Assembly: GCA_018058425.1 (NCBI GenBank)
Contig: JAGOZX010000001.1
Span: 1,832 to 65,831, forward strand
Direction: 5' to 3'
DNA length: 64,000 bases
Source: Sebaldella sp.
GTDB lineage: Bacteria > Fusobacteriota > Fusobacteriia > Fusobacteriales > Leptotrichiaceae
A program made the position numbers and the translations under genes. Shown in pieces: positions 6,182 to 52,190 of this stretch (position 1 is its first letter; the number at the start of each line of letters is the position of its first letter). The notes beneath the pieces were generated by a model, which saw nothing but the letters and a program-made list of their open reading frames with translations, ran no database searches and had not been told where the DNA came from.

Positions 6182-6306
6182 TTTTTTAAATGACATAATG
6201 GCACATTGGAGCAACAATATTCACAATATAACTAAGATAAAAAGTATTATTAGAAAGATTGAAAGAAGTTAAATTTAGTAATAAATACTAATTTGGAGGT
6301 TCTAAC

Positions 6307-6492: not shown

Positions 6493-6496
6493 TTAA

Positions 6497-6568
6497 AAAG
6501 TCTCTCCCGACCAAGAAAGAGACTTTAAATGTGATATAACTACCACCTAGACAGTGGAATTATATCAC
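6497..6568 (+). terminator. Two hairpins before the integrase
   Basis: The first hairpin pairs AAAGTCTCT (6497-6505) with AGAGACTTT (6518-6526). The second pairs GTGATATAA (6531-6539) with TTATATCAC (6560-6568) and has an inner CCAC/GTGG pair, with TTTT just after (6571-6574). They may end the repressor transcript and set integrase expression apart; the first lacks a proper T-run. Confidence 0.5.
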
Positions 6569-6602
6569 ACTTTTACTAAAAATAAAAGGATGTGATTTTT
6601 TT

Positions 6603-7637
6603 ATGCGTAACCCCAATGGATACGGATCTGTTTTTAAATTATCTGGAAATCGAAGAAAACCTTATGCTGTCAGAATAACCCAAAAATGGACTGATGAGGG
6701 AAAGCGGATCTACAAATACTTAAGCTACCATGTTACAAGAAAAGAAGCTATGCAAGCTTTAGCCTCATACAATGCTAATCCATATGATGTTGATGAAAAT
6801 AATATTACCTTTAAAGCGATGTATGAAAATTGGAGTGATAGACACTTCAAAAACATTACTAAAAACACCATCAAAGGTTATGAGACATGCTTTGGTTACT
6901 GTAAACCTATATACAACATAAAAATAAAAGATATTAAAATTGTACATTTGCAAAATTTAATTGATAATCTTAATAAAAATCATGGAACATTAAAATTGAT
7001 GAGAAGTCTATTAAACCAAATTTTTAAATATGCTATGCAACTTGATATTATCCAAAAAGATTACAGTAAGTATCTAAAAATAGGGAAACATATTGTTATA
7101 AAGAAAAAAACTATATTTTCAGATGATGAGATTAGTAGGCTATGGGATAATTTAGATTATCACAAATACATTGATACAATCCTAATTATGGTGTATACAG
7201 GAATGCGGATAGGTGAACTTCTTAATTTAAAAAAAGAAGATATTGATTTAATTGAACAGACTATTATTGTTACTGACAGTAAAACACAGGCTGGACAAAA
7301 TAGAATCATACCAATTCACCCTAGAATAAAAGAGTTAATTCAAGGTAGATATGATTATTCTGAAGTTGACTATCTAATAAGCAATATCAGAAATAACGGC
7401 TATATTAATTATAGTTACTACAATACTAAATTATTTAATCCTATTATGATTTTTCTCAATATGGAACATACACCACATGACTGCAGACATACTTTTGCAA
7501 CAAGATTAAATGATGCAGGTGGAAATGCCACAGCTATAAAGAAAATAATAGGACATGAATCTTTTGCTCTAACTGAAAAGGTTTACACTCATAAAAAGGT
7601 AGGCGAATTGAGAAAAGCTATAGAACTAATTAATTAA
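6603..7637 (+). CDS. Prophage tyrosine integrase
   Basis: This is a tyrosine recombinase that inserts and excises the prophage. Residues ~1-60 resemble an arm-type DNA-binding domain, ~70-160 the core-binding SAM-like domain and ~170-344 the catalytic domain. The catalytic set is complete: Arg202 (TGMRIGEL), Lys227, His292 and Arg295 (HDCRHTFATR), His318 (GHES) and nucleophile Tyr328 (VYTHK). Length (344) is slightly below typical phage integrases (~370-390). The ribosome binding site is weakly spaced (AAAGGATG, then a T-run). It ends near the prophage/host junction, as expected. Confidence 0.93.
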   Translation: MRNPNGYGSVFKLSGNRRKPYAVRITQKWTDEGKRIYKYLSYHVTRKEAMQALASYNANPYDVDENNITFKAMYENWSDRHFKNITKNTIKGYETCFGYCKPIYNIKIKDIKIVHLQNLIDNLNKNHGTLKLMRSLLNQIFKYAMQLDIIQKDYSKYLKIGKHIVIKKKTIFSDDEISRLWDNLDYHKYIDTILIMVYTGMRIGELLNLKKEDIDLIEQTIIVTDSKTQAGQNRIIPIHPRIKELIQGRYDYSEVDYLISNIRNNGYINYSYYNTKLFNPIMIFLNMEHTPHDCRHTFATRLNDAGGNATAIKKIIGHESFALTEKVYTHKKVGELRKAIELIN

Positions 7638-25613: not shown

Positions 25614-25700
25614 TTTAACCACCTCAATATTCTAATAATCTTTAAGCATATTTTTCTCAAAAGCCCATTACTCAGCGTCTACAGTTGCTTTGATATACAA

Positions 25701-25859: not shown

Positions 25860-28800
25860 CTAAAATACTGCTTTTAAAGTAATCCCTGTTCTATAATCAT
25901 TTTGGCTGTTTCCTCCTATTGAATATTCTCCTGTTAAAAATATTCCATAAGTATCCTCTATTTCAGTTCCTATTATTATTTTTGTTACTAATTTTCCTTT
26001 TTCTTCTTTTGGCTTTGCCAAATTATGATACCCGTCTTCTATTGATACTAACCTTGCTTTCTCTTGAGTATTTAAATTAGCTAGTTCGTATTCATAAGCT
26101 ATATCTAAAGCTCCTTTTAATTTCCAACCATACTTATTCTCATTTGTTGAAACCTTAAGGTCAAACCCAGCTCTTGGCTTTATACTCCAAGCGTCATTTC
26201 CTTTCACTTGTAAACTATCCATTCCTTTTTCCTCAAAATTAGGTCTCATAATATACATTATTCTAAAAGCACCATATGGAGTTATTTGTAAATTTTTCCA
26301 TAACTGAAACTTTTTTCCTAAAATATTATCACTTGTTAAATCATAAGTTTCAAATATTCCATTAATTTCCGACCTAGCAGTTTTTATCCATCCTACATTT
26401 CTATCTATATTATGTAAGCTCGCTCTACCCATTAGATCATTTCTTAAAATCCAGTCATTTATTTCATACTTACTATGACCACCTATTTGTATTGTATCTA
26501 CCCATTCTTCACTTTTATTACCATCATCAAATTCAAAACCTGTGTGTAAGTATCCCAAAGAGTATCCTACAGTATGCTTATAATTTTTTTCCACTTCTTT
26601 TAAAGCAAGAACTCCTGTAGATGTATAGTCGTAGCCTATGACACCCGGAGTATTTTCTATTGTTGTTCCTTTTCCCGTTATTATATTTATCTTTACTCTT
26701 TCAGTTGTATTATTTTTCGAATTCTGAAGTAAGCTTAATGAACTTTCAAATGTTCTAGCTATATCATATTCTCTCTGATTTATATTAGAATAAATATTTC
26801 CTGATACATTTCCAATAATTCTATTTAATTCAGTAAGATTTTCTACCATATCCAGTCTATCATAAAATAACAGTGCATTTCCTTGTGCATTTTCATATTT
26901 ATCATCTAAACTCTTAGCAAATACTTCCCACAAAGTTCCTTTAGCTATCTTCGAGTATGGAATTCTCTCCATCCATATATCTAAATTTCCAGCAGGATTT
27001 ACGTTTGGAATAGCATTCCAGAATATCCCTTTACTTATAATATCAGATATTCCATAGTTTAATCCTCCATTTAATGTATTAGGATTAAAAACTTCTTCTA
27101 ATTTATAAGAATTCACATTTGTACCCTGTGAAAAATCTGGAGCTACTTCTATATTTCTCAATACAAATTCTGGAGCTATAAATTTTACAGAGTTTGATAC
27201 TAAAAACTTTCCATTTATATCTTCTAAATCATACCCTGTTGGTAGTGGACTTGCTGATCTCATAGTACTAGGATCCACTTTTATCTGAATTACTGCATTT
27301 TCTGGAACTATAAATTTTTCGCTTACCTTTATTATTCCTGAATTAATTATAGATGGTAAATTATAAGTAGGGCTTGGGTTTAAATAATTTACAGGTGCCA
27401 AAACAGATGGGTCTGTTACTAGGACCCTTCCCCCATTCCCAGCATTTACATTTATTGTCCCTGAATTGACCAAAGTTGATCCATTTTTCATTAGTATTCC
27501 TATACCATTTTGACCAGTTACATTAATTATCCCTTTATTTTCTATTATTATATTTAGATCAGCATATATACCTACGCTATTTTGACCAGTTAAATTTATT
27601 ACTCCAGTAGTTTCATTTGTAATTTTTACATCTTTTACACCAGCTATTCCAACAGAATTATTCCCAGTTAAAATTATACTACCCCTGTTAATAAACTCTT
27701 GGTTCTGACCAGATTCTATATACACACCCACTGTTTCTTCTCCAGCTGATGAAATCATACCATTATTTTCTATTTTATCCATTGGTTTATAAGAATAAAC
27801 TCCTATTCCTTTTACTCCTGTTTCAATGACCCCTGAATTTATCATATTTAAGTTTTTGTAACCATACATACCGGTAGCAAAATCATTAATTGATAAATTA
27901 TTTGGATCTATATATGTATCCCCCAATTTTATAGTTCCCCAATTTTCTGCCAAGCTCTCTTCTGCATAAATTCCTGAACTTACATTTCCAGTTTCTATAT
28001 TTCCCAAATTGATAATACTAGAATTATTACTTCCATACATACCAACTCTTGAATTTCTCACATTACTTGCTGTACCCGATTTAGAAATAGTATTAGCATT
28101 AATAATAGTAGAATTATCTGAATACATACCAACAGAACTTATACCTAAGTTTACAGCTGCATTATTAATTAATGTACTTCCATTTCTTCCTACATACCCA
28201 AAACTCCCAGCTGGCATATTTCCATTTGCTCCTGCATTTGAAGATCCTACATTTATAACTCCTGTTGCTGTTATATATGCTCCATCTGTTCCATAAAAGC
28301 CTGCTGAATTCTCTCCTATAACATTGATTAGACTTCCAGTGGCTTGAATCTGCCCACCTTTTCCATAAAAGCCTACTCCATTTCCATCTATATTTATAAC
28401 CCCATTTATTTGATTTACTAAAACTTGATTTTCATAAATACCTATAGATTCTCCTCCAATAAAGAAGTTTCCAGTACTATTAATTGTTGTATTTCTCTCT
28501 CCATATATTCCAACATTAGTTGTAATACTATCTGAAACACTAATTGTTCCACTATTATTTATTATTAATTGCCCTGTTCCGTCTGTAGTTCCATATATTC
28601 CCACAGAAGAGTCTCCAATTACATTTATATTCCCTGTATTTATTAACTCTCCTGTAATAGTACTATCTACATCTATTCCCAGTATTCCAATAGATTTTGT
28701 TCCAATTACTGTTGTCTCTCCGGTATTTAAAACTCTTCCCCCCTCTTGAATTAGACCTGTTGCTTTATCTCCAGAAACATGTATTTTATTATTAAAAGTT

Positions 28801-31800
28801 ATTTGTTTTGAAGAGCTAAAGTCAGCTCTTAATACAGAACCTGTTTGTTCCTTCTCCACATTTAAAGTTAAGCCGGAAATAGTTATATCACTAAATATTG
28901 AATTTTTTCCATATACACCTATCGATCCAGTTCCTTCTCTTACATAAATTGTTTTATTAGAAAAAATATCTCCTTCTGATGTATAAATACCAAATTGATT
29001 TAACTTATTTAAGTCGTAAATTCCACCCGAAGTATCTGTTAATGATACTTTTGAAGATGATAAAGGATTTCTTTTTACATAATTATAGATAGAGTTTGCA
29101 CCAGCCTGTATATTTCCTGAAATAATTTTCATTTCTGAATCTTCACTATTTGCTATTACTCCTACTCCAACAGAATAATCTCCTGTATTTATGTTTCCAC
29201 CATTTATAATAATTAAGCTGTCTGTTCCAAATACCCCAAGAGAGTAATTTAATCCAACAACACCACTCCCTAAAGTAATATTTCCTGAATTTAAAATATC
29301 TGTTCTTTCCCCATAAATTCCTGATGTACCATATCCTATTAAATTTATATTCCCAGTATTTTCAGCTACTGATCTATTATCCAAATCATATCCTACAGAA
29401 TAAATCCCTATAGTTTCATTGGCTACAGAATTTATTCTTCCAGCATTCTTTATTTTATTTTCTTTTCCTACTCCTTGAATTCCTGCTACACCTAATATGT
29501 CATCTGCATAAATTCCCACACCCAAGCTTCCTATTACAATTTCTCCATTATTTTCTGCAATAGATCCTAATGTAATGTATTCTCCTGCTCCTGAATCTCC
29601 AATATTTATCATGCCTGTAACATCATTTATAATACTTGAATAGTGTCCAAAAAGCCCTATTCCTTCATCACCTAAATTTATTTTATTTTTATTGATTATA
29701 AAGCCAAAGTTTTCAGCATAGATTCCTGTTGATTGAATAGCTTTTACGCCTGAGAATATTTTTGATTCTATTTCTCCATTATTTGTAATTATAGAATTTT
29801 TTGCAAATATTCCTATACTTTTGTTTGGAACTACTATTTTTGTTCCTGAATTATTTGTGTAAGTTGAATTTATTACTGTAAATATCTCTACTCCAGTATT
29901 TGGAGTTACTATTTCTGTTGTTGGAGATATATTTATTCTCCCATTATTCTGTATTACAAATACTGATCCTTTTCCTGTTATTTCAATTTTTCCTCCATTT
30001 ATATTTACAGTACCCCCATTTACTCCTAATGCAACAGTTCCATCTCCATTTGCTTTTAAATAAGTATTATTTAAATCTAAAACATTTGCATTATTTAAAG
30101 CTTTTGCATACACCCCAATAGCAGGATATAATCCACCAATTTTCCCTGTTTCTATATCTGGAATACTTGCACCTATCCCATTATAAGTCACTTTATTTGA
30201 ATTCATTGTTGCATCATAATAAAGTGCTACAACTCCATCTCCTCCAGATAAACTTGTAGTAATATTTACAGGACTACCTAAGTTTTCAATTCCCAATACT
30301 GTAGATTGGACACTTGAAATAGTTTTATCTCCTATTTTCAGACTCTTAATTGTACTGTCTATATTAGAATTACCTGTCATTAAAATTCCTGTTAAGTTAT
30401 CTCCAAGTACTATATTTTTCATAACTGATGAACTCGTTAAACTTCCATTTTCTAAGAAATATCCGTTACTTCCTACTCCTAAGTAAAACTTATTTTCATC
30501 CATAAAAGAACTATCAAATATTCCTGATTTTATATATACTGCTGTACTATTCTCATCAGTTGTTATACTATCCATACTATCTATAAAACTAGAGTTTTCA
30601 GTATACAAACCTATACCATTTTTTCCTGTTTCTAATTTTCCTAACTTTATAGTTCTAAAAGTATCTACTTTATTTAAATATACTGCTGTTCCATTATCTC
30701 CGACTTTTATTAGACCTCCAGCTGAGTTATCTAAATTAGAATTTTCTACATAGATTCCTAATGATCCGCTATTTAAGTCATTGATTCCTAAAAGTGTTAG
30801 ACCACCAGTCCCCATTATAATATTTGCTTTTTCTCCACTTGAAACTATTCCTATACTTTTAGTACCACCTATTTGTGTTATCTCATTTCCAATTGTTCCT
30901 ATTCTTAAACTAGTTCCTATTATATTATCTACACTTCCATTTAGGTAAATTCCTATTCCATTTTCCCCTAATTCTATATTACTATTAAATTCTACTTCTC
31001 CTTGATTAGCATACAATCCTATATTCTTTCCAATTGAAGATACCTTTATACTTCCACTACCAGAAACTTTTATATTTTCATTTTTTGAATATATTCCTAT
31101 ACTATTATTTATTGCTGAATTACTTGTATTTTCTATTATTCCATTATTTATTGTTTCAAGATTATCTAGTATATTATAGTTTTTTGAATTTACAGCTATT
31201 CCAATTCCGCCATCAGTAACATTTATTTTATTTAAATTTTCTAGTTTTTTTAATCCTGTATTTCCATTATCCATTACATATATTCCAGTTCCACCACTTA
31301 CATTTATTACTCCAGAATTTCTAACAACTGATGCAACAGAGCTTACAGGTGAATTTGAAGTCACTTCATATAAAATGCCAATTCCATCATCGCCCGACAA
31401 ATTAATTGTATTTCCTGATGCAAAATTTATACTATTCCATCCAGAATATATTCCTATGCTCTTATTATTTATATTAAATGCTGTATTTACCAAGTTTAAT
31501 GTATTTGAAGTTTGTGAATCTAAATAAATTCCATAATTAAAATTATCTGGTTCATTATTTGTTACTGTTATACTTCCTCCTGTATTTAGCACTCCTCCAT
31601 TTTTTACATATGCTCCTATTGTATTTCCAACAGTATTTAGTGTTATTTTACTTCCTGTTCCTAAGTTTACTATTCCTCCTTCATTAAAAATAGCACCATT
31701 AGTCTTTAAGCTATTATTATTTCCAGAAATTCCAGCAACTTTAAGTTCAATACTCCCATTATTTTGGAATTTGGAATTTATATTTACGACTCCTATATTC

Positions 31801-33485
31801 ATATTTGAATCTCTATTTAGATTTAAATTTATTTCTCCAGAATTAAAAATTGTATTATTTACTAGTCCTCCATTAATTCCATACATTCCAATATTTTCAT
31901 TATTAATAGAGTTTATATTTATTTTTTGATTATTTATAATTACTGTGTTTCCATCTTTATTTGTAGAGGCCATTCCCACAGAATTTTCAGTTTCAGCACT
32001 TAAGTTTATTATACCATTATTTATATTAGTACCATTATCTACTCTCACTCCATTGCTATTTTCACTATATACTTCTATTATCCCAGTATTTATAAAAGAC
32101 TTATTAGCTATAGTTTGGTATAATCCTGTAGAATTTTCACCATTTACAGTGATTAAACCATTATTTAGTACTGCATTATTGGGTAAAATAACTCCACCAG
32201 GCAGTACAGCTACACCATAGTTATTTTTCCCATATAAATTTATTTCTCCATCCTGAACAAATTTATTAGAAAAAATTATGCTCGGATCTAAATTTGTATA
32301 TGTTCCAGTAAAGTTTCCTTGTAAATTTCCCTTCTTAAGGTAAATTCCATAACTGCTATCTCCATATAAATTTATTTCCGCGCCTAATTTATTTACAACT
32401 CCTATTGCAGTGGTAGTATTTAGTACTTCTATTCCTATACTTGTATTTCCATTTAGAGTTATTCCCCCCCAATTTTCTGCTTGAAGTAAATTTCCTCCTC
32501 CTATAAAGTCTATTCCTATAACATTATAACTAGAAGAACTAGATATTATCTTTCCTTTATTTATATAAATAGAATTTCCTGGTCCTGAATATCCCTGCTC
32601 TGTTTCTACTGCTTTGGAATTATTAGCATTTATTATTAGATTTCCAGTTGTAGTTACTGATATAATTTGATTTAAATCACCTACTGGTGACCCAAGCTCT
32701 CCTCTATGACTTTCTATAGCTATTATTCTCGATCCTGGTAAGTTTGTTCCTATATCTGAACTTATAATATAACTTAAATTACCATTTCCACCTGCTTTAT
32801 TTCTATTATTTGAGTCTTCAGTGCCTATAAACTGGACCAAAGCTGTTTGTTTTGCATTACTTGCCAACATAGTTCCATTTGTAAAATCTGCAAAATTAGT
32901 ATATAAATTTTGAGCAGTTGACCAATTGTTATAACCATTAGCATTTCCTGCTAAACTTATTGTTGGAATAACTATATCAGCAAAAAATTTAGGAAATATA
33001 TTTATATCTAGTAATTCTATCTCTTTATCTCTTGTTATATTTATACTCTCTACTTCTAATGAACTTATACCCGAAAATTTAATATCAGGTAAATTTTTAG
33101 ATATTGGAATATCTATACTTATTGGATTTTTAGCAATCATTATATCTGGAATTTCTGGTATTATAGGTACATTCAAATCTATATTTTTATCACTAAAAGA
33201 TATAAACCTTTTTCGTATTATTGGACTTAATTTAAAAAGTCTTTTTTCTGGTGGTAAAAGTTCTAATTCATTTGTGTTTGTTTCACCCTGACCCTTTTTT
33301 TTATAATCATAAAAAGCACTAAAAAATACCTGCCACTCCAAATACTCTTTTTCATTAGTATTTTTAGATTTTTCAGTTTTTTTTAGTGCCTTTGTTTTAT
33401 TAGTATTTTTATTTACTCCTAAACTTTTATTTTCACTTAACATAATCCCGTTTAATACACACATTAGGAATATAAATCTCTTCAT
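25860..33485 (-). CDS. Giant autotransporter adhesin 2, 2541 aa
   Basis: This is a paralogue of the gene at 17976-25613 along its whole length: the same signal peptide type (MKRFIFLMCVLNGIMLS), head (YLEWQVFFSAFYDY, IRKRFISFSDKNIDL), proline-rich segment, passenger with S-x-GIY repeats, linker (VTDPSVLAPVNYLNP near 2130) and barrel ending RTGITLKAVF. AAGGAG precedes the ATG at 33485. The two proteins differ by only four residues in length, so almost no repeat units have been gained or lost since duplication. It encodes a surface-exposed type V secreted protein; the binding partner is unknown. There is no protease motif that I can see. Confidence 0.9.
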   Translation of the reverse strand: MKRFIFLMCVLNGIMLSENKSLGVNKNTNKTKALKKTEKSKNTNEKEYLEWQVFFSAFYDYKKKGQGETNTNELELLPPEKRLFKLSPIIRKRFISFSDKNIDLNVPIIPEIPDIMIAKNPISIDIPISKNLPDIKFSGISSLEVESINITRDKEIELLDINIFPKFFADIVIPTISLAGNANGYNNWSTAQNLYTNFADFTNGTMLASNAKQTALVQFIGTEDSNNRNKAGGNGNLSYIISSDIGTNLPGSRIIAIESHRGELGSPVGDLNQIISVTTTGNLIINANNSKAVETEQGYSGPGNSIYINKGKIISSSSSYNVIGIDFIGGGNLLQAENWGGITLNGNTSIGIEVLNTTTAIGVVNKLGAEINLYGDSSYGIYLKKGNLQGNFTGTYTNLDPSIIFSNKFVQDGEINLYGKNNYGVAVLPGGVILPNNAVLNNGLITVNGENSTGLYQTIANKSFINTGIIEVYSENSNGVRVDNGTNINNGIINLSAETENSVGMASTNKDGNTVIINNQKININSINNENIGMYGINGGLVNNTIFNSGEINLNLNRDSNMNIGVVNINSKFQNNGSIELKVAGISGNNNSLKTNGAIFNEGGIVNLGTGSKITLNTVGNTIGAYVKNGGVLNTGGSITVTNNEPDNFNYGIYLDSQTSNTLNLVNTAFNINNKSIGIYSGWNSINFASGNTINLSGDDGIGILYEVTSNSPVSSVASVVRNSGVINVSGGTGIYVMDNGNTGLKKLENLNKINVTDGGIGIAVNSKNYNILDNLETINNGIIENTSNSAINNSIGIYSKNENIKVSGSGSIKVSSIGKNIGLYANQGEVEFNSNIELGENGIGIYLNGSVDNIIGTSLRIGTIGNEITQIGGTKSIGIVSSGEKANIIMGTGGLTLLGINDLNSGSLGIYVENSNLDNSAGGLIKVGDNGTAVYLNKVDTFRTIKLGKLETGKNGIGLYTENSSFIDSMDSITTDENSTAVYIKSGIFDSSFMDENKFYLGVGSNGYFLENGSLTSSSVMKNIVLGDNLTGILMTGNSNIDSTIKSLKIGDKTISSVQSTVLGIENLGSPVNITTSLSGGDGVVALYYDATMNSNKVTYNGIGASIPDIETGKIGGLYPAIGVYAKALNNANVLDLNNTYLKANGDGTVALGVNGGTVNINGGKIEITGKGSVFVIQNNGRINISPTTEIVTPNTGVEIFTVINSTYTNNSGTKIVVPNKSIGIFAKNSIITNNGEIESKIFSGVKAIQSTGIYAENFGFIINKNKINLGDEGIGLFGHYSSIINDVTGMINIGDSGAGEYITLGSIAENNGEIVIGSLGVGIYADDILGVAGIQGVGKENKIKNAGRINSVANETIGIYSVGYDLDNRSVAENTGNINLIGYGTSGIYGERTDILNSGNITLGSGVVGLNYSLGVFGTDSLIIINGGNINTGDYSVGVGVIANSEDSEMKIISGNIQAGANSIYNYVKRNPLSSSKVSLTDTSGGIYDLNKLNQFGIYTSEGDIFSNKTIYVREGTGSIGVYGKNSIFSDITISGLTLNVEKEQTGSVLRADFSSSKQITFNNKIHVSGDKATGLIQEGGRVLNTGETTVIGTKSIGILGIDVDSTITGELINTGNINVIGDSSVGIYGTTDGTGQLIINNSGTISVSDSITTNVGIYGERNTTINSTGNFFIGGESIGIYENQVLVNQINGVINIDGNGVGFYGKGGQIQATGSLINVIGENSAGFYGTDGAYITATGVINVGSSNAGANGNMPAGSFGYVGRNGSTLINNAAVNLGISSVGMYSDNSTIINANTISKSGTASNVRNSRVGMYGSNNSSIINLGNIETGNVSSGIYAEESLAENWGTIKLGDTYIDPNNLSINDFATGMYGYKNLNMINSGVIETGVKGIGVYSYKPMDKIENNGMISSAGEETVGVYIESGQNQEFINRGSIILTGNNSVGIAGVKDVKITNETTGVINLTGQNSVGIYADLNIIIENKGIINVTGQNGIGILMKNGSTLVNSGTINVNAGNGGRVLVTDPSVLAPVNYLNPSPTYNLPSIINSGIIKVSEKFIVPENAVIQIKVDPSTMRSASPLPTGYDLEDINGKFLVSNSVKFIAPEFVLRNIEVAPDFSQGTNVNSYKLEEVFNPNTLNGGLNYGISDIISKGIFWNAIPNVNPAGNLDIWMERIPYSKIAKGTLWEVFAKSLDDKYENAQGNALLFYDRLDMVENLTELNRIIGNVSGNIYSNINQREYDIARTFESSLSLLQNSKNNTTERVKINIITGKGTTIENTPGVIGYDYTSTGVLALKEVEKNYKHTVGYSLGYLHTGFEFDDGNKSEEWVDTIQIGGHSKYEINDWILRNDLMGRASLHNIDRNVGWIKTARSEINGIFETYDLTSDNILGKKFQLWKNLQITPYGAFRIMYIMRPNFEEKGMDSLQVKGNDAWSIKPRAGFDLKVSTNENKYGWKLKGALDIAYEYELANLNTQEKARLVSIEDGYHNLAKPKEEKGKLVTKIIIGTEIEDTYGIFLTGEYSIGGNSQNDYRTGITLKAVF

Positions 33486-37473: not shown

Positions 37474-38556
37474 CTAATACTCAGCTTTTCTAAATAAATA
37501 TATCCCCAATGCAAAAAACACTATGTTTGTTAACCATGCTGTTATATACAATGGTAATGTTGATACTACTGGTCCTACTGACCTTAATATAGTAGATATT
37601 CCATAATAACTGTAACCTATTAGAACTGACAAACCAATATTTATTGCAGCGCCTCCTCTAACATACTTACTACCCAGTGATAGTCCTATAAAACTCATAA
37701 TAAAAGATGAAAAGGCAAAAGATAATCTATTATATAATTCTGAAAATAAATCATCAGTATTTGCTCCAACTCTGCTATAATAAACTGATTTCTCACGTAA
37801 TTCTTTTAGTGTTAACTCTTTTGCTTTTACTTGATCTGCTAAAATTTCGCTTGGAGTTGAAGTAAAGTTGAACTTTTCACTTGAAAATGGTGCTTCCACA
37901 TTTCCCATAGCACTAAGCTCTTTTAAATCAGTAAATTCCCAAACTTTTGTTTTCTCATTATATATAGCTTTTGGTGCAGTATATATTGATTTCACTCCTT
38001 CAAAGTCTTTATTAAAGTCGATAATCATAATTATTTCCATAATGTTTTTATCTCTATTTACATAACCTGTATAAAGCATACGAGTTTTGTCTAACTTTAT
38101 ATACACATTTTCTTTTTCATTCTTTTTTGCTTCTTCTTCTTGTTTTAGCCTAGAATCCTTCATTTCTCTCTTTTTCTTATTAGACTCAGGTAAAACATTT
38201 ATACTCATATACATTGTTCCTACAGAAACTAAAATTGAAAACATTATAGGAAAAAGTACAAATCGTCTAAAACTAATTCCTGAAGTTTTTACTGCTGTTA
38301 CTTCCAGTCTTTGAGCCATTTTACTTATTGTTAATAAACTTCCTAGTAAAATTCCTAGAGGAGCTGTATTTACAATGATTTCTGGCAGCCCATATCTTAC
38401 ATAAATCAAACTGTCTTTTAGTGTAAATTTCTTTTCCATTATCCAACCAGTTATGTTTATACTTTCTGCTAACATGAAAATCATGAAGAACATTGTCATT
38501 CCTAAAATGAATCCCTTTATATAATTAATCAAAATATATCTATCTAATTTATTCAT
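37474..38556 (-). CDS. lptG: LPS transporter permease LptG
   Basis: This is one of two permeases that, with the LptB ATPase dimer, extract LPS from the inner membrane. Three N-terminal and three C-terminal membrane segments flank a periplasmic beta-jellyroll domain (~130-250). The N-terminus LDRYILINYIKGFILGM and the EVTAVKTSGISFRR coupling-helix region near 88-101 are typical of YjgP/YjgQ proteins. The order after lptF and a one-base overlap with it identify it as the LptG-like member. Length 360 is standard. Confidence 0.9.
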   Translation of the reverse strand: MNKLDRYILINYIKGFILGMTMFFMIFMLAESINITGWIMEKKFTLKDSLIYVRYGLPEIIVNTAPLGILLGSLLTISKMAQRLEVTAVKTSGISFRRFVLFPIMFSILVSVGTMYMSINVLPESNKKKREMKDSRLKQEEEAKKNEKENVYIKLDKTRMLYTGYVNRDKNIMEIIMIIDFNKDFEGVKSIYTAPKAIYNEKTKVWEFTDLKELSAMGNVEAPFSSEKFNFTSTPSEILADQVKAKELTLKELREKSVYYSRVGANTDDLFSELYNRLSFAFSSFIMSFIGLSLGSKYVRGGAAINIGLSVLIGYSYYGISTILRSVGPVVSTLPLYITAWLTNIVFFALGIYLFRKAEY

Positions 38557-39650
38557 TATCTACTCCTTGACTTTTTAATAGATAATATTATACAAAGCAA
38601 TAATAAAATTAAATTTGGTGTCCACATGGCTAGTGACGGATGAATATGATTTTTTTGTACAACTACCTTTGCATAATTAACTAATCCTATATAAACAAAT
38701 ATTACTATTAAGCTTATTCCAAAACTTATTCCTTTACCTGCTCTTTTATTTGATACTGACAGCATTACACCTAACCAGCATAATAACACACTTGCAAAAG
38801 GACCTATTATTCTTTCATTATACTTAATGAGATATTTTATAGAATCTTCATATGGTTCACCATTCTTAACTGCTTCTTTATAACTATCTTGTAATTCTTT
38901 TAAATTCATTTCACTTCTTGATTTTTTTTCTATGTCCTCTTGTTTAAAAAATGTACTTAGTGGTAGATACTGTTCTTCATACTTTGCTACCACTTCTCTA
39001 TTTCCATTTTCATCAAAATTATAACCTTCTACTTTTTTTAAAATAATATATCCTGGTTCAAACTTTGCTTTATCTGCTAAAAATACAGTTGGATAACGAC
39101 CCTTTTTAGGAGTTTGAAATAATACAAATTTACTTGCTTCTGCTTTTTGATTATCCACCTTATCTACATAAAATCCAAAACCGGCGTCTGAATTCGATAA
39201 GAATACTTTTTCCTCTGTAAGAGAACTTGGCCTAGAAGAAAACAATACTCTTTTTTCTAAGTTTATATTATTTAAAGCTCTTGGATTTACTTTTATTTCC
39301 ATAAACAAACCAATAAAAGTCAGTATTATTCCAAAAATAATTGCTGGTCTAGTAAGTCTAAGTAAGCTAATCCCCGAACTCTCTATTGCTATTAATTCAT
39401 TTGATTCTGATAAACTTCCATAAGCAAGCATAACTCCTAGAAATGCTCCCATTGGAATGGTCTGTGTTAATACTCCTGGTACTAAATAAATAAAATAATC
39501 AAGTACAGATAAAGCTGGAAGATCATTTGCAAATAACTTTTCCATTATTTCTATAAATACGTTTATTATTAGTATAAAAGTAAAAATACTTATTCCAAAA
39601 ATTGAAGGTAATATCAGTGTTTTGTATATATATTTATCTATTATTTTCAT
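38556..39650 (-). CDS. lptF: LPS transporter permease LptF
   Basis: This is the second YjgP/YjgQ permease (364 residues): KIIDKYIYKTLILPSIFG at the N-terminus, three membrane segments, the coupling helix ELIAIESSGISLLR near 88-101, a periplasmic jellyroll domain and three C-terminal segments. It pairs with LptG and LptB; LptB lies ~7 kb upstream in the same cluster. It overlaps cvpA by four bases and lptG by one, so the three are translated from one message. Confidence 0.9.
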   Translation of the reverse strand: MKIIDKYIYKTLILPSIFGISIFTFILIINVFIEIMEKLFANDLPALSVLDYFIYLVPGVLTQTIPMGAFLGVMLAYGSLSESNELIAIESSGISLLRLTRPAIIFGIILTFIGLFMEIKVNPRALNNINLEKRVLFSSRPSSLTEEKVFLSNSDAGFGFYVDKVDNQKAEASKFVLFQTPKKGRYPTVFLADKAKFEPGYIILKKVEGYNFDENGNREVVAKYEEQYLPLSTFFKQEDIEKKSRSEMNLKELQDSYKEAVKNGEPYEDSIKYLIKYNERIIGPFASVLLCWLGVMLSVSNKRAGKGISFGISLIVIFVYIGLVNYAKVVVQKNHIHPSLAMWTPNLILLLLCIILSIKKSRSR

Positions 39651-43565: not shown

Positions 43566-43982
43566 CTAACTATTCATATCCAAATACTTTTGTAAAATTA
43601 TAGTAGCAGCTACCATATCCACTACTTGTCTTCTTTCTCTGGGGTTTCTTTTTGAATAATTTCTTAAATAATGTTCCGCTTCCACAGTAGAGTATCTTTC
43701 ATCTATCATAAAAATTTCTAAGTTTTCAATTTCACTTTTTAATTCTTCGATAAATTCATAAACTTTTTCCACTTGTCTTTTCATTGTACCATCTAAACTT
43801 TTAGGCAGTCCAATCACTATTTTTTTTGTTTTCTCTTCTTTTAATAACTCACTTATCCTTTTTACAGGATCCTTTTCATTTCTATTTATCACTTCTAATG
43901 GTGTTGCTAAAATTCCCATAGGATCTGATTTAGAGACACCTATTCTGACATCTCCTACATCTAAGCCTAGATATTTTCTCAT
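43566..43982 (-). CDS. ruvX: Holliday junction resolvase-like / pre-16S rRNA nuclease YqgF
   Basis: The RNase H-fold YqgF family, also called RuvX, processes the 5' end of 16S rRNA in E. coli. The first acidic motif LGLDVGDVRIG lies at ~5-15 (Asp7), the VIGLPKSLDGT motif near 56-66, DERYSTVEAE near 93-102 with the conserved Asp and Arg, and a final acidic VDMVAA near 121-126. Length 138 is typical. It overlaps the end of alaS by four bases; the alaS-ruvX pairing is common in bacteria. Confidence 0.93.
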   Translation of the reverse strand: MRKYLGLDVGDVRIGVSKSDPMGILATPLEVINRNEKDPVKRISELLKEEKTKKIVIGLPKSLDGTMKRQVEKVYEFIEELKSEIENLEIFMIDERYSTVEAEHYLRNYSKRNPRERRQVVDMVAATIILQKYLDMNS

Positions 43983-46591
43983 AAAACTTCCTCTAGGTAT
44001 CTTTTACCATGCTCAAGTGCTTCATAGAGTTTTTCTCCATCTTTTCCACCAGCTTGTGCAAAATCAGGTCTTCCTCCACCATTTCCATTGGCTATTTTAG
44101 CCACTTCTTTTACTATATCTCCAGCCTTTACCTTTTTTACAAGGTCATTTGAAACACCTGCTAAAAACATTGCATTTCCATTATTTGCTCCTATTAAAAC
44201 TACTCCGCTTACTAATTTTTCTTTTGCTCTGTCTACGATCTCTTTCAGTTCATTACTATCCTTATTATGAAAACCTTTTATTAATACCTTTATTCCATTT
44301 ATGTCCATTACACTACTCATTAAATCATTTATTTCATATTTTATAAGTTTTAATTGTAATTCACTATAATTTTTCTCTAAGTCTTTATATGAATCTTTTA
44401 GTTTTTCTACGGCTTCTTTCACTTTTTTTTCTTCCACTTTAAGTGACTTAGCTAAATCTTTCAGACTCTCTTCCATACAATTTACAAACTCAAGACTTTT
44501 ATAACCTGTTGTTGCAGTTATTCTTCTTACTCCCGATGCTATTCCTGATTCACTCTCCACATTTATAAGTCCGATTTCACCAGTAGAATTTACATGTGTT
44601 CCTCCACATAACTCTATTGAAAACTGTGGAATTTCCACTACTCTTACATTATTTCCATATTTATCACCAAAAAGTGCCATTGCTCCTCTTGATTTTGCAG
44701 TTTCTATATCTTCAGTATATATAGACAAAGGAATATTTTCCAATACTATTTGGTTTGCTATTTTTTCTATTTCAGATAATTTTTCCTGTGATACTGCTTC
44801 ATAGTGTGAAAAGTCAAATCTTAACCTTTCAGAATCTACAAGAGACCCTGACTGTTCTACATGATTTCCTAAGACTTCTCTTAATGCTTTATGTAGAATA
44901 TGTGTGGCTGTATGATTTCTTTGTGTATCTTTTCTTTTAGCTTTATCTATTCTTAAGTTAAGTTCATCTCCAACTTTTGGCATAATTCCTCTTACTAATT
45001 CTATTTCATGAATAAATACATCTTTCTTTTTTACCACATTTACTACTTTACCTTCAAATACATCACTAGAATCAATAGTCCCTACATCTGATACCTGTCC
45101 TCCAGATTCTGCATAAAATGGTGTTTTATCAAATATAATTTCATAATTACTAGAACCTTGGCTTTTATTTACATATAAGACATTAGCTTTTTCTTCTGAC
45201 TCATCATATCCTGTAAATTTTGTTTTACCATGCTTTTTAAAAAATTCATCTATAAATTCATCTTTTATCATATCAGAAATAGTTTCTTTAGAATTTTTTG
45301 ATCTTACTTTTTGCTCTTCTAATTTTTCTAAAAATTCTTCCTCTGAAACTTCTATTTCTTCATACTCTAAAACTTCTTTTGTTAATTCAAATGGAAATCC
45401 ATATGTATCATATAATTTAAATGAAATTTCAGATGGAAACTTAGAACTTTTAGTTTTTTTCAATTTTTTAACTTCTTCTTTTAAAATTTCAACTCCATTT
45501 TTCAATGTAACTGTAAATTTCTCTTCTTCTATTTTTATAACCTTTTCTACATATTCAATTTTAGAAGGCATTTCAGAATATGCTTCCTTCATTATTTCTA
45601 CAACTATTGGAACTAATTTAAATAAAAATATATCCTCTTTTTCAAATATTCTTTCTTTAACAGTACTAGCTACTCCAAATGCTCTTCTGATTAATTTTCT
45701 TAATATATATCCTCTACCCTCATTTGAAGGAAGAACACCATCAGCAATTAAAAAAGTTGCTGCTCTTATATGGTCTGCTATTATTTTTAGTGCTTTATCT
45801 GTCTTTTCATTTCTTTCCACTTCTAATATAGCCTTTGCAGCATCTATTATAGGTAAAAATAAATCTGTATCAAAATTAGATTCTTTATTTTGCATTACTG
45901 CAGCTATTCTTTCTAATCCTGCTCCTGTATCTATATTTTTTTCTGGAAGCGGCACTAACGTCCCGTCTTCAAGCCTATTCCACTCTGTGAACACTAGATT
46001 CCATATTTCTAAATACCTGTCACAATCGCAACCAGGCTTACAGTCTAGGTTTCCACAACCTCTCTCTTCACCTAAATCAATGTGTATTTCACTACAAGGT
46101 CCACAAGATCCTATTGGACCAGCTGCCCACCAGTTATCTTCTTCGCCTAATCTAACTATTCTTTCTGCTGGTAATCCTACTTCTTTATTCCAAATCTCAT
46201 ATGCTTCATCATCATCTAAAAATACAGATACCCATAATTTTTCAGGATCTAATTTTAAGACTTCTGTAATATACTCCCAAGACCAAAATATTACTTCTCT
46301 TTTAAAGTAATCACCAAAAGAAAAATTCCCAAGCATTTCAAAAAACGTTTGGTGTCTAGTTGTCACCCCTACATTTTCTAAATCATTCGTTCTGATACAT
46401 TTTTGATAAGTAGTTATTCTTTTAAATGGTGCTTCTCTCTCACCTAAAAAGAATGATTTAAATGGTACCATCCCTGCTACTGTGAGTAATAATGTCTTAT
46501 CATCTGGTATCAAAGAAGCACTTTCAAAATATTTATGATCCTTTGACTTAAAAAAATCTATAAAACTCTTCCTTATCTCGTTTCCTGTCAT
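43979..46591 (-). CDS. alaS: Alanyl-tRNA synthetase
   Basis: AlaS charges tRNA-Ala with alanine. The class II core is at the N-terminus (SFIDFFKSKDHKYFESASLIP, then motif 2 around TTYQKCIRTNDLENVG and motif 3 near GAGLERIAAVMQ). The editing domain has the zinc motif HTATHILHKAL at about residue 560 and the CGGTHV motif near 660. The C-terminal C-Ala/DHHA1 part ends in GGGRPDFAQAGGKD. Length (870) is standard. It also contains a four-cysteine-type patch (CGNLDCKPGCDCD) at ~180-195, as in many AlaS. Confidence 0.98.
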   Translation of the reverse strand: MTGNEIRKSFIDFFKSKDHKYFESASLIPDDKTLLLTVAGMVPFKSFFLGEREAPFKRITTYQKCIRTNDLENVGVTTRHQTFFEMLGNFSFGDYFKREVIFWSWEYITEVLKLDPEKLWVSVFLDDDEAYEIWNKEVGLPAERIVRLGEEDNWWAAGPIGSCGPCSEIHIDLGEERGCGNLDCKPGCDCDRYLEIWNLVFTEWNRLEDGTLVPLPEKNIDTGAGLERIAAVMQNKESNFDTDLFLPIIDAAKAILEVERNEKTDKALKIIADHIRAATFLIADGVLPSNEGRGYILRKLIRRAFGVASTVKERIFEKEDIFLFKLVPIVVEIMKEAYSEMPSKIEYVEKVIKIEEEKFTVTLKNGVEILKEEVKKLKKTKSSKFPSEISFKLYDTYGFPFELTKEVLEYEEIEVSEEEFLEKLEEQKVRSKNSKETISDMIKDEFIDEFFKKHGKTKFTGYDESEEKANVLYVNKSQGSSNYEIIFDKTPFYAESGGQVSDVGTIDSSDVFEGKVVNVVKKKDVFIHEIELVRGIMPKVGDELNLRIDKAKRKDTQRNHTATHILHKALREVLGNHVEQSGSLVDSERLRFDFSHYEAVSQEKLSEIEKIANQIVLENIPLSIYTEDIETAKSRGAMALFGDKYGNNVRVVEIPQFSIELCGGTHVNSTGEIGLINVESESGIASGVRRITATTGYKSLEFVNCMEESLKDLAKSLKVEEKKVKEAVEKLKDSYKDLEKNYSELQLKLIKYEINDLMSSVMDINGIKVLIKGFHNKDSNELKEIVDRAKEKLVSGVVLIGANNGNAMFLAGVSNDLVKKVKAGDIVKEVAKIANGNGGGRPDFAQAGGKDGEKLYEALEHGKRYLEEVL

Positions 46592-46599: not shown

Positions 46600-47340
46600 C
46601 TAGTCTAATTTGAAATTTCCACCTAAGTAGACTTTTTTAGCTACTTCATCATTGGCTATTTCATTACTTGTTCCACTAATCAATATTTTTCCTTCTGCCA
46701 TTATATATGCTCTTTCTGTTATCTTTAGAGTCTCTCTTACATTATGATCAGTTATTAATATTCCTAATCCTCTATCTTTTAAATGTATTATTATATTTTG
46801 AATATCTTCCACTGCTATGGGATCTACCCCAGCAAATGGCTCATCTAATAATATAAAATCTGGATCTGTAGAAATAGTTCTAGCTATTTCCACCCTTCTT
46901 CTTTCTCCTCCAGAAAGAGAATAACCTAAATTTTTTGAAACATGAGATAATTTAAATTCTTCAATTAAATTATCTTTTATCTTTTCTCTTTCGTTCTTTT
47001 TTACGCCTCTCATCTCTAAGACTGATACAATATTTTCTTCTACAGTTAGATTTCTAAATATAGAGGCTTCTTGTGGTAAATATCCTAAACCTAATCTAGC
47101 TCTTTTAAACATTGGATAATCTGTTACATCTTCATCATTGTACTTAACTGTACCATAGTTAGGCTTTATTATTCCAGTTATCATGTAAAAAGTTGTAGTT
47201 TTCCCAGCACCATTTGGCCCCAATAATCCTACTATTTCCCCTTTTTTAACAACTAAGTCTACATCTTTTACTACTTCTCTTTTTTTATATATTTTCTTCA
47301 AATTACTCGCTTCAATACTAATCGTTCTATGTATTGCCAT
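46600..47340 (-). CDS. lptB: LPS export ATPase LptB
   Basis: LptB is the cytoplasmic ABC ATPase that drives LptFG. Walker [10 protein letters not shown] is at 41-49, the signature [13 protein letters not shown] near 142-154, Walker [13 protein letters not shown] near 164-175, and the H-loop ITDHNVRET near 197-205. The FAGVDP and ITDHNVRET forms are characteristic of LptB rather than LIV-type ATPases. It starts 11 bases after the giant LptC/LptA-like gene, so the pump and the bridge are cotranscribed. Confidence 0.95.
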
Positions 47341-47351: not shown

Positions 47352-49577
47352 TTATTTTACTTTAATATTATATGTTTTTCTATAAGTTCTTCCATTAAAT
47401 TTCAGAACTGATGTTATTTGAGTATCTTCATATATTTGTTGAGTATTACTTATTTTATTATCATTTCTATTCCACTCTAGCGGAATTTCTAATATCTTCC
47501 CATATACATTTACTTTAGTTGTATCTGGAAGGTCTACTGCTTTCCCAGCCTCTATTGCATTAGGAATATACACTTTTGAGCTAGCCCGCTCAAGCATTTC
47601 TTCTATATTTTCTGATGGAATCCCAACATTAAAAGTTTTTACTCTTCTAGCATTTCCAGAGGCTAGTTCTGCTGTTAAAGTTACAGTTGAGCTTTTCCCA
47701 CCATAATATTCCTTATTTACTCTTCCACTTCTATCTAAAATACCACTATTTGAACTTTCCCATTTTATAGAAACTGGAACTTTATTACTTGCTTCAAGTG
47801 CTTTAGGAAGACTTATTCTACTTCCTCTAACTTCTTCTACACTTAATTTAGTAAAAATTTCATCTACTGCATCTGTATCTTTTTTTTCTGCTTTTTTATC
47901 ATTTTGAGCAGTGTCATTAGTCTTTAGATAATAATCTACTTTAATATTTTTCTCGTTTTGCAGTACTTTTCTATCTAACTCATATGATGCTTTATCAGAA
48001 CTAATTCTAGTTCTATCTTTATAAGTAACTACATTTCCAATCAAGTCTATTTTTCTCGTTTTATTATCTATAATGGCTTTATCAGCACTAATATCTACTT
48101 TACCTACACCAATATTATTTATTATTTTTACATTTGTCTGTGCATAACCTTTTTCAGTATTCAAATCTATATAAAAGTAATTTGAAGTCATTTGTGTACT
48201 CTCTCTAAATCTAAGCCTTACATTATCTCTTGATAAAACAACGTTTTTTCCTGCATCTATCTCACTATACTGCGAAGATGCATTTAGATCCTTATATCTC
48301 ACATTAACATTACTTTTTATTTCTCCTCTTGTCATGCTATACTTATTATCTTCATGAACTAAAAAATACATTTTTGCATTGTCACCTGTAAAGTAAATTG
48401 CATTTGCATCTACTAACATTTCTTTACTCTTAGCAAAATCTTTAACATTTCCTCTAATTTTCCCATCTATATTTCCATCAAATCTAAATTCTTTTTTTTC
48501 AAAGTTTCCTTCTCCTGTATTAGAAGTGATTCTATCTCCCTGATCACTTGTCATAACCATACGATTTGAAAATATATTTTTTGTTTTAGTATTTGCTGAA
48601 CCACTTGTACCGCCTACTACCATATTCTCTTTTCTTACTGTAAAATTAGAATTAACTGTAGCATCTCCAGTTCCTACCACATAATGAAGGCTGTTACCCT
48701 TTATTATATACCCATCGTTGTTTAAAGTAAATGCTGAATTTGTATCTAGTACTTGATCCTTTAAATTATAGATTCCATCTATATATACTCCATCAACATT
48801 ATTACTAGGATATTTAAACATTCCTCCACCAGTAGCATTAACTATTTGACCTTTCATATCATAAACAGTATGACCAGCTGTAATTTCAGAGCCATTTCCA
48901 ATATAATGCACATTTCCATCAGCAGTTAAAAATTCTGTTACCATCTCATAAATCGCTGAGTCAGCCTTTAAATCCGAACCATCACCTACATAATGTACTT
49001 TCCCTTTTGCATCAACTTTTTTTAAATCGGTATAATAAATTGCACTATTTGCTGTTATTCTATCCTTCTCTCTTTGAAAATCTACATTCCCAGTTAAAAT
49101 AATCTCTTTAAAAGTAGTTGTGGTTTCTAGTTTGTCGCCAAATACAGTTGTTTTATCTTCATTATTTACTGCTTTTGACCTTGTATTTGAGGTTAGTTTA
49201 TCTGTTTCTTTTTTATAATTAACTTCCTCTGTAAATAGATTCCATTTATTATCTTTAGTTTTCCCTATTACCTTACCTTTGAGTACCATGTCCTGAGTCT
49301 CAGTGTCAACTACCCCTTCATTTCCAGAGATCATAACATCTTTTTTCAAAAGATCTACTATTACATTTTTAAATCTTATTTCTTTGTCTTCTGGTGTACC
49401 TAGCTGCTCATCTGCATAAATTATAGCATCATCTTTTAAATAATATACTACTTTCTTAGTTTTAGCTTTTTCTTCTAAGTCTATATTACTTGGAGGAGTT
49501 ATTGTCTTATAAAAGATAACATATATAAAATATCCAATAAAAAGTGCTATTAGAACATAGATAATTTTTTTCCACAT
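47352..49577 (-). CDS. Giant LptC/LptA-like LPS bridge protein, 741 aa
   Basis: One membrane anchor (residues ~5-24) is followed by an LptC-like segment (~30-115) and then a long run of OstA/LptA-type beta-jellyroll repeats to about residue 550, with the recurring pattern I-T-A-x-S-A-I-Y-…-A-x-G-x-V-x-Y (for example [20 protein letters not shown] at 174-193, then [20 protein letters not shown]). After a charged linker (559-568) come two Ig-like beta domains (~575-653 and ~665-741). LptC is normally ~190 residues and LptA ~185. The anchored fibre here is long enough to replace several LptA copies. No separate lptA is nearby. It lies between mutS and lptB. Confidence 0.85.
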
Positions 49578-52190
49578 TTAATTATTCTCCTCTAACTTTT
49601 TCTTTAAGTCATTTAATACCCTTAAGGCTTCTAATGGAGTCAAGTTGTTAACATCCACATTTTCAATATCAAATAAAATTTCTTCATAAAGTTCTTCTTT
49701 TTTATTTTGTATCTCTTCTTCAATTAAGTCTATTCCTTCACCGCTAAAAAGAGATAATTGCTCTACATTTATTGCTTTTTCTGATAATTCTTTTCTCTTT
49801 TCAAGTCCTTTAAGTATCTTTTTACTGTTTAATAATATCTCTTTTGGAAGTCCTGCTAATCTTGCTACTTCTATTCCATATGACTTGTCTGCTCCGCCTC
49901 TTACTATCTTTCTTAAGAAAACTACACTATTAGAACGTTCTTCCACTTCTATTCTATAGTTCAATATAGTTTCAAATCTTTCTTCTAATTCAGTAAGTTC
50001 GTGATAGTGAGTGGCAAAAATTGTTTTTGCTCTTATTTTATTATGAATATACTCAGTTATTGAGGTTGCTATTGATATTCCGTCAAATGTCGAAGTTCCT
50101 CTACCCACTTCATCAAGTATAATAAGACTGTTTTCTGTTGCACTATTTATTATATTTGAAACTTCACTCATTTCCACCATAAAAGTACTCTGCCCACTTA
50201 CTATATCATCAGCAGCACCTATTCTTGTAAGAACCTTATCCACAATAGACAATTTTGCACTTTTAGCAGGTACATAAGAACCTATTTGAGCTAATATCTG
50301 TATAAGTCCAATTTGTTTCATATATGTGGACTTTCCAGCCATATTGGGCCCAGTTAAAATAATAAAATTCCCATCTCTATTCATATGAACATCATTGGCC
50401 ACAAAATCTTCTCTACCTATTAATTTTTCCACTACTGGATGTCTGCCTTCTTCTATTTCAATGATATAATCATCAATAAATTCTGGACAAACATAGTTAT
50501 TTTCTATTGCAGTTACTGCAAATGATATTATCATATCTAAATATGCTAAAATTGCAGACAACTTTACTAAAACATCTTTTCTTCCTTTTATTTCACTAGA
50601 AATCTCCTTAAATAGATGATATTCTAACTCTTCTACTTTTGATTTTGCATTTATTATTTTATCTTCATACTCTTTAAGTTCTCCAGTAATATATCTTTCT
50701 GCATTTGAAAGTGTCTGTTTTCTGATGTATTCTTCTGGAACCAAGTTTAAATTGGAGTTACTAACTTCTAAAAAGTATCCAAAAACTTTATTATATTTTA
50801 TTTTTAAATTTTTTATTCCAGTTTTTTCTTTTTCTCTTGCTTCAATTTCTAATAAAAAGTCTTTTCCAGTACTCATTATTTTAAAAATTTCATCTAATTC
50901 TTGATTATATCCTCTTTTTATTACATTTCCCTCTCGTATAGTGAAAGGAGCATCTTCTTTTATACTTTCATCTATTATTCTGTAACACTCTATTAAAACA
51001 TTTCTATCTATATCATGAAAAAAGTTTGTTTCTTTTAATAAGTCCATTATTTCTAGTGATGACATTATTGATTTTTTTAAAGCTACAAAGTCCTTCCCAT
51101 TTTCATTTCCTAATACAATCTTACCAGAAAGTCTTTCTAAATCATATACATCATTTAATTTTTCTTTTATATCTTCCCTCATTAAAATATTATCAATGAA
51201 ATATTGCAGATCATTTTGCCTTTGCTTTATCTCATCTATATTTAAAAGAGGATTATTTATAATCTTTTTCAAAAACCTTGTTCCCATTGAAGTTTTACAT
51301 TTATCTAAAACCCATAGTAAAGTTCCATAACTGGAATTCTCTCTTTGATTTTTAGTTAATTCTAAATTTCTTCTTGTTGTAGAATTTATTTCAGCAAAAT
51401 TTGTTATATTGATATATTCTATTTTTTCCACAGGAAGCTCGCCGTCTACCTGCATAGATAAAGCATAATCTAAAATCATTGCTGCTGCGTGTATAATAGG
51501 TTTCATTTCAGCTATACCAAAGCTTTCTAATGATACAACCTTAAAATAATCCAGTAAAAAATTCTCTGGATCTCTTAATTTATTAACTAAAGTGACCTTA
51601 GAATCTGTTTTTTTACTATACTCTTCAAATTTATCTTTAAAAGTTTCATAAAAACTAAATTCTATCAAAACTTCTTTTGGTTCTATTTTATATAATTCAT
51701 TAAAAATTTTTGAAAAGTCAGTATCTTCTTCTAATTGAAGAACCTTAAATTCTCCAGTTGTTATATCTAAATACGAAATTCCTATTTTATTTTCTAATGG
51801 CTTTATTGCTAATAAATAATTATTACTTGTAGCATCTAGAGAATCTACATCTATTACAGTTCCTGGAGTTACTACTCTGACTACTTCTCGTTTTACTATT
51901 CCTTTACTACTCTTTGGATCCTCCACCTGCTCACATATTGCTACTTTATAGCCCTTATTGACTAACTTAGTTATATATCCAGCTGCTGAATGATATGGAA
52001 TACCTGCTAAAGGTACATCCATTCCTTTTTCTTTATTTCTTGAAGTTAATGTTATACCTAATTCTTTTGATGCTACCTCTGCATCTTTAAAAAACATCTC
52101 ATAGAAATCCCCTAATCTAAAAAATAAAATAGAGTCTTGATGATTTTCTTTTATTTCTTTATATTGTTTCATTAATGGCGTTTCTGACAT
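49578..52190 (-). CDS. mutS: DNA mismatch repair protein MutS
   Basis: MutS finds mismatches and recruits MutL. The mismatch-reading Phe-x-Glu motif is F29-Y30-E31 in RLGDFYEMF. Connector, lever and clamp domains follow. The ATPase has Walker A GPNMAGKSTYMKQ at ~610, Walker B ILDEVGRGTSTFDG and the THYHEL switch. The C-terminal helix-turn-helix dimerisation region and a final acidic tail complete it. Length (870) is typical of MutS1. It ends one base before the LptC/A-like gene starts, an unusual coupling of repair with LPS transport. Confidence 0.97.
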   Translation of the reverse strand: MSETPLMKQYKEIKENHQDSILFFRLGDFYEMFFKDAEVASKELGITLTSRNKEKGMDVPLAGIPYHSAAGYITKLVNKGYKVAICEQVEDPKSSKGIVKREVVRVVTPGTVIDVDSLDATSNNYLLAIKPLENKIGISYLDITTGEFKVLQLEEDTDFSKIFNELYKIEPKEVLIEFSFYETFKDKFEEYSKKTDSKVTLVNKLRDPENFLLDYFKVVSLESFGIAEMKPIIHAAAMILDYALSMQVDGELPVEKIEYINITNFAEINSTTRRNLELTKNQRENSSYGTLLWVLDKCKTSMGTRFLKKIINNPLLNIDEIKQRQNDLQYFIDNILMREDIKEKLNDVYDLERLSGKIVLGNENGKDFVALKKSIMSSLEIMDLLKETNFFHDIDRNVLIECYRIIDESIKEDAPFTIREGNVIKRGYNQELDEIFKIMSTGKDFLLEIEAREKEKTGIKNLKIKYNKVFGYFLEVSNSNLNLVPEEYIRKQTLSNAERYITGELKEYEDKIINAKSKVEELEYHLFKEISSEIKGRKDVLVKLSAILAYLDMIISFAVTAIENNYVCPEFIDDYIIEIEEGRHPVVEKLIGREDFVANDVHMNRDGNFIILTGPNMAGKSTYMKQIGLIQILAQIGSYVPAKSAKLSIVDKVLTRIGAADDIVSGQSTFMVEMSEVSNIINSATENSLIILDEVGRGTSTFDGISIATSITEYIHNKIRAKTIFATHYHELTELEERFETILNYRIEVEERSNSVVFLRKIVRGGADKSYGIEVARLAGLPKEILLNSKKILKGLEKRKELSEKAINVEQLSLFSGEGIDLIEEEIQNKKEELYEEILFDIENVDVNNLTPLEALRVLNDLKKKLEENN

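Follow-up and report, generated by a model that had tools for sequence, protein, structure and literature searches.

A gene directly upstream of lptB in Sebaldella sp. raises the question of whether the lipopolysaccharide (LPS) bridge of the periplasm, which E. coli builds from LptC and LptA, can be formed by a single polypeptide. The gene lies in the window, the 64,000-nucleotide stretch of contig JAGOZX010000001.1 that was analysed here. An earlier note on the window had described the product as a 741-residue protein with an N-terminal anchor and ~500 residues of OstA/LptA-type repeats, and the open reading frame (ORF), the Pfam and NCBIfam matches and the structural model agree with this description. 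The protein combines an LptC anchor and more than one LptA length of β-taco in one chain, and searches for a separate LptA or LptC detected neither. One polypeptide therefore very probably constitutes the entire periplasmic LPS bridge and replaces both LptC and LptA.

Gene organization and family matches

The bridge ORF starts with an ATG codon and encodes a product of 741 residues (Table 1). The lptB gene begins 11 bp downstream, and mutS is located on the other side. The lptF and lptG genes, which the earlier note had also placed in this cluster, are found ~8 kb further along in the same leftward run, and both match PF03739 over the cut-off. Two other features of the window stood out. At positions 634–7637, antirepressor-like, phage-repressor-like and tyrosine-integrase-like ORFs form what looks like the edge of a prophage or mobile element. 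The ORFs at 17976–25622 and 25860–33485 are neighbouring and similar (2548 and 2541 residues), contain many short glycine/asparagine-rich repeats and a β-barrel-like C-terminus, and appear to be a tandem pair of giant surface proteins resembling autotransporters.

Table 1. Positions of the bridge gene, its protein segments and relevant neighbouring genes in the window
Feature	Position	Strand	Basis
Bridge gene, whole (741 residues; LptC anchor, LptC/LptA-type β-taco fibre and Ig-type tail)	47352..49577	(-)	ORF, Pfam, NCBIfam, AlphaFold model, Foldseek
Residues 2–22, predicted N-terminal transmembrane anchor	49512..49574	(-)	Helix in model
Residues 43–163, N-terminal LptC-like β-taco module	49089..49451	(-)	TIGR04409 match at 52–166; PF06835 over cut-off; near-constant length throughout the phylum
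Residues 164–240, insertion site of ~31-residue hairpin repeats in Leptotrichia relatives (+2, +3 and +4 units)	48858..49088	(-)	Alignment; DNA tandem repeats in L020
Residues 241–344, β-taco fibre continued	48546..48857	(-)	pLDDT ~90
Residues 345–549, conserved C-terminal β-taco module with low-confidence loop 375–393	47931..48545	(-)	Most conserved block; profile match in 89/98 genomes
Residues 550–590, charged flexible linker and short helix 565–577	47808..47930	(-)	pLDDT <50 at 544–561; helix in model
Residues 591–655, atrophied bacterial Ig domain (aBig_2)	47613..47807	(-)	PF20578, E=1.2e-11 with the tail alone
Residues 656–741, putative second Ig-like domain	47355..47612	(-)	Strands in model only; Big_4 12.9 bits, below cut-off
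lptB, LPS exporter ATPase	46600..47340	(-)	TIGR04406, 368 bits (cut-off 240)
lptF, permease	38556..39650	(-)	PF03739 over cut-off; best NCBIfam model TIGR04407, under its own cut-off
lptG, permease	37474..38556	(-)	PF03739 over cut-off; best NCBIfam model TIGR04408, under its own cut-off
mutS, conserved upstream neighbour; synteny marker outside the LPS system	49578..52190	(-)	Conserved gene order
alaS, conserved neighbour downstream of lptB; synteny marker	43979..46591	(-)	Conserved gene order

The search for OstA- and LptC-type profiles that the earlier note had suggested was positive. With the whole protein, the LptC (6.7e-14, three stretches), LptD_N (1e-11, two stretches), OstA_2 (1.7e-4) and aBig_2 (1.5e-10) models of Pfam all matched over their curated cut-offs. 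The LptC models scored 52.3 bits (PF06835; cut-off 21) and 73.3 bits (NCBIfam TIGR04409; cut-off 38), and the LptA model TIGR03002 stayed below its cut-off (26.4 versus 71.7 bits). LptC-type models matched the N-terminal 170, the middle 186 and the last 211 taco residues separately, and TIGR04409 attained at most 29.7–35.2 bits with single segments. The PF03968 match covers residues 147–244. When the protein was cut into parts, the aBig_2 match was restricted to the tail.

The bridge protein resembles LptC in its single N-terminal helix, followed by taco strands from residue 43, but with 741 residues and ~33 strands it departs from the size of LptC (~190 residues, one taco domain). LptA is a soluble protein with a cleaved signal peptide, whereas the anchor helix of the bridge protein is predicted to remain uncleaved. 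LptD carries an outer-membrane barrel after its taco domain; the bridge protein ends in an Ig-type tail instead. The protein contains no cysteine (Cys count of 0) and is therefore not a lipoprotein.

Predicted fold, fibre length and Ig tail

The AlphaFold2 model of the bridge protein was calculated from an alignment of seven sequences (mean pLDDT 81, pTM 0.56). Six of these were relatives found by a profile scan, after a single-sequence search of genome contigs with the bridge protein had given no match. The model is composed of a helix (residues 2–22), a long run of strands (43–541), a disordered segment (544–561), a second helix (565–577) and a β-rich tail. Strand starts are 14–16 residues apart over most of the fibre, which comprises ~32–33 strands, and the hydrophobicity of the protein is autocorrelated at 15 and 29–31 residues. 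In a Foldseek search against the PDB, the model matched LptD, LptA (2r19, TMt 0.77, rmsd 1.8 Å, 120 columns), LptH and LptC (4b54, TMt 0.80); a phmmer search of the protein against the PDB gave no meaningful match. A Leptotrichia homologue with an insertion produced Foldseek matches of the same kind, with the insertion itself (residues 164–193) modelled at low confidence. The assignment of the predicted fibre as an Lpt-type β-taco of ~500 residues is well supported. Because the LptA alignment spans 120 columns of a 135-residue chain, counting residues gives a fair estimate of the fibre length. Per residue, the previous estimate of approximately three LptA lengths is fair, given 499 taco residues against about 135–158 residues.

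The length of the bridge protein ranges from 430 to 1093 residues across Fusobacteriota, and 52 of the 65 frames outside Leptotrichiaceae have 870–945 residues. Contig ends or disruptions probably account for some of the shorter frames; those of 430 and 468 residues are complete genes flanked by mutS and lptB. The natural short-bridge variants (430–468 residues; L055 in G051, L060 in G054 and L116 in G076) keep both ends and have lost nearly the whole middle. Between conserved anchors, the N-terminal module is near-constant (42–45, 59–69 and 38–42 residues), and the C-terminal module changes little in length except in G039 and G055, whose 797-residue bridges (L047 and L057) have ~65 residues near the C-terminus missing or misaligned. 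The repeat survey over Fusobacteriota, another check that had been proposed, revealed a middle of 78 to 563 residues (78, 123, 196, 256–258, 289–290, 317–322, 471, 525–533 and 540–563) that changes in steps of ~30 residues. The steps seen in Leptotrichia and its neighbours amount to +2, +3 and +4 units of ~31 residues, all at a single site, and tandem repeats with lengths of 87 and 93 bp can still be recognized in the L020 DNA. The near-constant ends and the stepwise middle support a fibre length that is encoded in the gene, as the earlier note had envisaged.

A strict molecular ruler, in which the number of repeats, gained or lost in hairpin units of ~30 residues, matches or sets the periplasm width of each lineage, would be consistent with the narrow range of the 52 frames and with the constancy of the ends beside the stepwise middle. 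The distinct middle lengths also cluster at multiples of 30 residues, that is, of one hairpin or two layers (p 0.006 with a fixed period). However, with a scanned period this clustering reaches only p=0.064, and the lineages are not independent; a strong 30-residue quantisation was accordingly dropped. Moreover, tight-turn repeat proteins tolerate few other insertions or deletions, so steps of whole units require no ruler. Long and short bridges occur together in two genera (468 versus 900–906 residues and 430 versus 870 residues), and any fixed bridge would have to accommodate this twofold range. A ruler would demand either slack or, with every fibre taut, strong differences in width among congeners, which makes a strict ruler unlikely.

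The confidence of the model varies along the groove. The pLDDT is ~90 at residues 50–360 but falls to 47–67 across most of residues 370–460. The fold prediction proposed in the earlier note thus recovered Lpt-type strands at 43–541 and places a groove across 370–460 only at low confidence. The low-confidence region and the 19-residue loop at 375–393 would also fit two taco modules (residues 43–374 and 394–541) that are hinged at the loop and do not share one groove. This arrangement is rather improbable, given that the strand spacing picks up again beyond the loop and that the matching segment in Fusobacteriaceae is 7–13 residues shorter (43–49 versus 56 residues). An unbroken groove along the whole fibre is likely from the model.

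The C-terminal tail had been read as two Ig domains. The first is recognized by Pfam (PF20578, 44.7 bits with the tail alone against a gathering cut-off of 27), and the second appears in the model only. Among the proteins examined, the Ig tail is restricted to Leptotrichiaceae and three further genera (g23, g24 and g25). Outside Leptotrichiaceae, aBig_2 tails were observed in L110 (G078), L111 (G079), L112 (G081) and L125 (G082); in the first three, the tail follows a full-length fibre in proteins of 1074–1093 residues. The conservation of the tail (0.52–0.66) is mostly under that of the taco (0.62–0.76). Most of the phylum lacks the tail, which is therefore, on comparison of these sequences, outside the core design. 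The idea that it compensates for a short fibre was discarded because g23 and g24 combine a full-length middle with the tail (g25 was read in part only). With the flexible linker before the tail, the last taco strand would remain accessible to LptD. Docking of the tail on peptidoglycan or the outer membrane is a guess, and its docking on LptD, which the earlier note had given as an alternative to peptidoglycan, would likewise be hypothetical.

Search for separate LptA and LptC and link to LPS genes

Separate LptA and LptC proteins were sought with PF03968, PF06835 and the family profile. In the Sebaldella sp. genome (3.24 Mb, 87% complete), only the bridge ORF and the LptD ORF matched PF03968 and PF06835 at E<=1. 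The match on contig C30 is LptD, which begins with a taco domain and continues on C33, so that the LptD of this genome (G000) is divided between the two contigs. The same two proteins, bridge and LptD, were the only ones among the matches listed for 60 relatives, and no separate LptC was found in nine mostly complete genomes searched to E=3. The barrel model PF04453 detected no LptD in any fusobacterial relative. A longer LptD might compensate for a short fibre; intact LptD frames have 1206–1276 residues in Leptotrichiaceae and Fusobacteriaceae where found, and no LptD was found in the short-fibre genomes. In relatives, LptD adjoins a gene read as threonyl-tRNA synthetase. A 173-residue frame in G051 was considered as a separate LptA and rejected. 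It scores below the cut-off and is located in a chaperone-usher-like cluster (L067), in which a 583-residue outer-membrane-type protein and small secreted proteins are neighbours. The earlier observation that no separate lptA is seen in the cluster is consistent with these searches of its own genome, of the relatives (among the matches listed) and of the complete genomes. As far as tested, separate LptA and LptC appear to be absent from the phylum.

These searches bear on a second reading of the locus, in which the gene encodes merely a larger LptC and the rest of the bridge is supplied by another carrier or by a soluble LptA that has diverged strongly. The NCBIfam name of the protein is LptC only, the genome of the window is incomplete, and fusobacterial Lpt proteins are divergent enough for the LptD barrel to escape PF04453. 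Such an arrangement is nevertheless very unlikely: no short PF03968 or PF06835 ORF occurs among the matches listed for the 60 relatives or in the nine mostly complete genomes, the sole short match is the rejected G051 frame, and the fibre by itself provides approximately three LptA lengths of taco.

A profile of the C-terminal module detected a bridge homologue in 89 of the 98 Fusobacteriota genomes searched, and two families outside the order are represented among these. Wherever the retrieved stretch is long enough, the gene order mutS-bridge-lptB-alaS is the same in different families, with a longer gap between the bridge gene and lptB in some Leptotrichia. One genome of a family outside the order (G097) contains two bridge copies of 895 and 906 residues (L113 and L114), and only one is beside mutS. 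Candidate LptF–LptG fusion frames in G013 and G035 each proved to be two ORFs. In the subset of 60 relatives, the bridge protein is present in 51, and LptF/LptG are present in exactly those 51. LpxC accompanies the bridge in 50 of the 51, and the exception is an 88%-complete genome. The bridge, LptFG and LpxC are all missing from the same nine genomes (G006, G007, G008, G010, G015, G016, G017, G020 and G023), which are also the nine negatives among the 98. These genomes are small (1.2–1.8 Mb), mostly 99% complete and distributed over four genera of Leptotrichiaceae. Their losses do not count as independent; judging from gene content, these lineages appear to have lost LPS altogether. Transport of a different lipid, or of an Lpt-like cargo of the kind suggested for Borrelia, which has an Lpt system but no LPS (PMC10353723), would be compatible with a fold that does not specify the cargo but is most improbable given that the bridge occurs with LpxC (50/51) and LptFG (51/51) and disappears together with them.

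Proposed mechanism and comparison with known Lpt systems

In the preferred reading, a single chain would serve as the whole bridge. The N-terminal helix would anchor the protein at LptB2FG, and the first taco module (residues 43–163) would receive LPS from LptF in an LptC-like manner. LPS would then travel along one covalently continuous β-taco trough of ~33 layers (residues 43–541), presumably toward the conserved C-terminal module (residues 345–549), whose edge may stack against that of the LptD N-terminal domain. An LptA oligomer would be unnecessary. The number of ~30-residue hairpin units in the variable middle, with two layers each, would set the fibre length, and the Ig tail on its flexible linker may be an accessory outside the LPS path that perhaps contacts peptidoglycan or the envelope.

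The span of the fibre was estimated with a scale taken from PMC5575297. On that scale, or with 0.48 nm for each layer, the fibre of the window would measure ~15–16 nm, or ~24 nm with LptF and LptD-N included. A 900-residue fibre would give 33–35 nm, and the shortest fibre about 20 nm. Together with LptF and LptD-N (~4 nm each), the fibre of the window would be long enough for a periplasm of ~21 nm without LptA oligomers, and a single chain would therefore suffice to cross it.

The bridge has in common with the enteric system (E. coli LptC and LptA, LptB2FG and LptD) the β-taco fold, an N-terminal anchor as in LptC, a gene beside lptB and the presence of LptF/LptG and LptD. It differs in that LptC and LptA are joined in one chain of approximately three LptA lengths, that no soluble LptA was found to oligomerise, and that the bridge has an Ig tail in Leptotrichiaceae. 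The LptD N-terminal domain (PF03968) is the same taco module, but no outer-membrane barrel follows the taco of the bridge, and LptD is a separate gene. The aBig_2 Ig domain of the tail, over its cut-off for PF20578, is joined here to an LPS-bridge protein. OstA-domain proteins are also encoded next to lptB in the Lpt cluster of Negativicutes and Halanaerobiales; Negativicutes have two of ~200 residues each (PMC5007114), whereas Fusobacteriota have a single protein of 430–1093 residues. Borrelia burgdorferi, an organism without LPS, has the same fold and partner genes but keeps LptC and LptA as separate genes (PMC10353723).

No description of a fused LptC–LptA in Fusobacteria was found in the open literature searched. 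Long OstA-type proteins exist in some other phyla, and the fused design may therefore not be unique.

How enteric LptA bridges the periplasm, in copy number and as a fixed or a dynamic assembly, is unsettled; the bridge of Fusobacteriota would be one covalent chain. The gene would determine the stoichiometry of this chain, and the sequence would reveal its length. Species, even congeners, differ by countable layers, which would make the relationship between bridge length and periplasm width testable by cryo-ET. With oral and tumour-associated bacteria among the members of the phylum, the bridge may also serve as a target.
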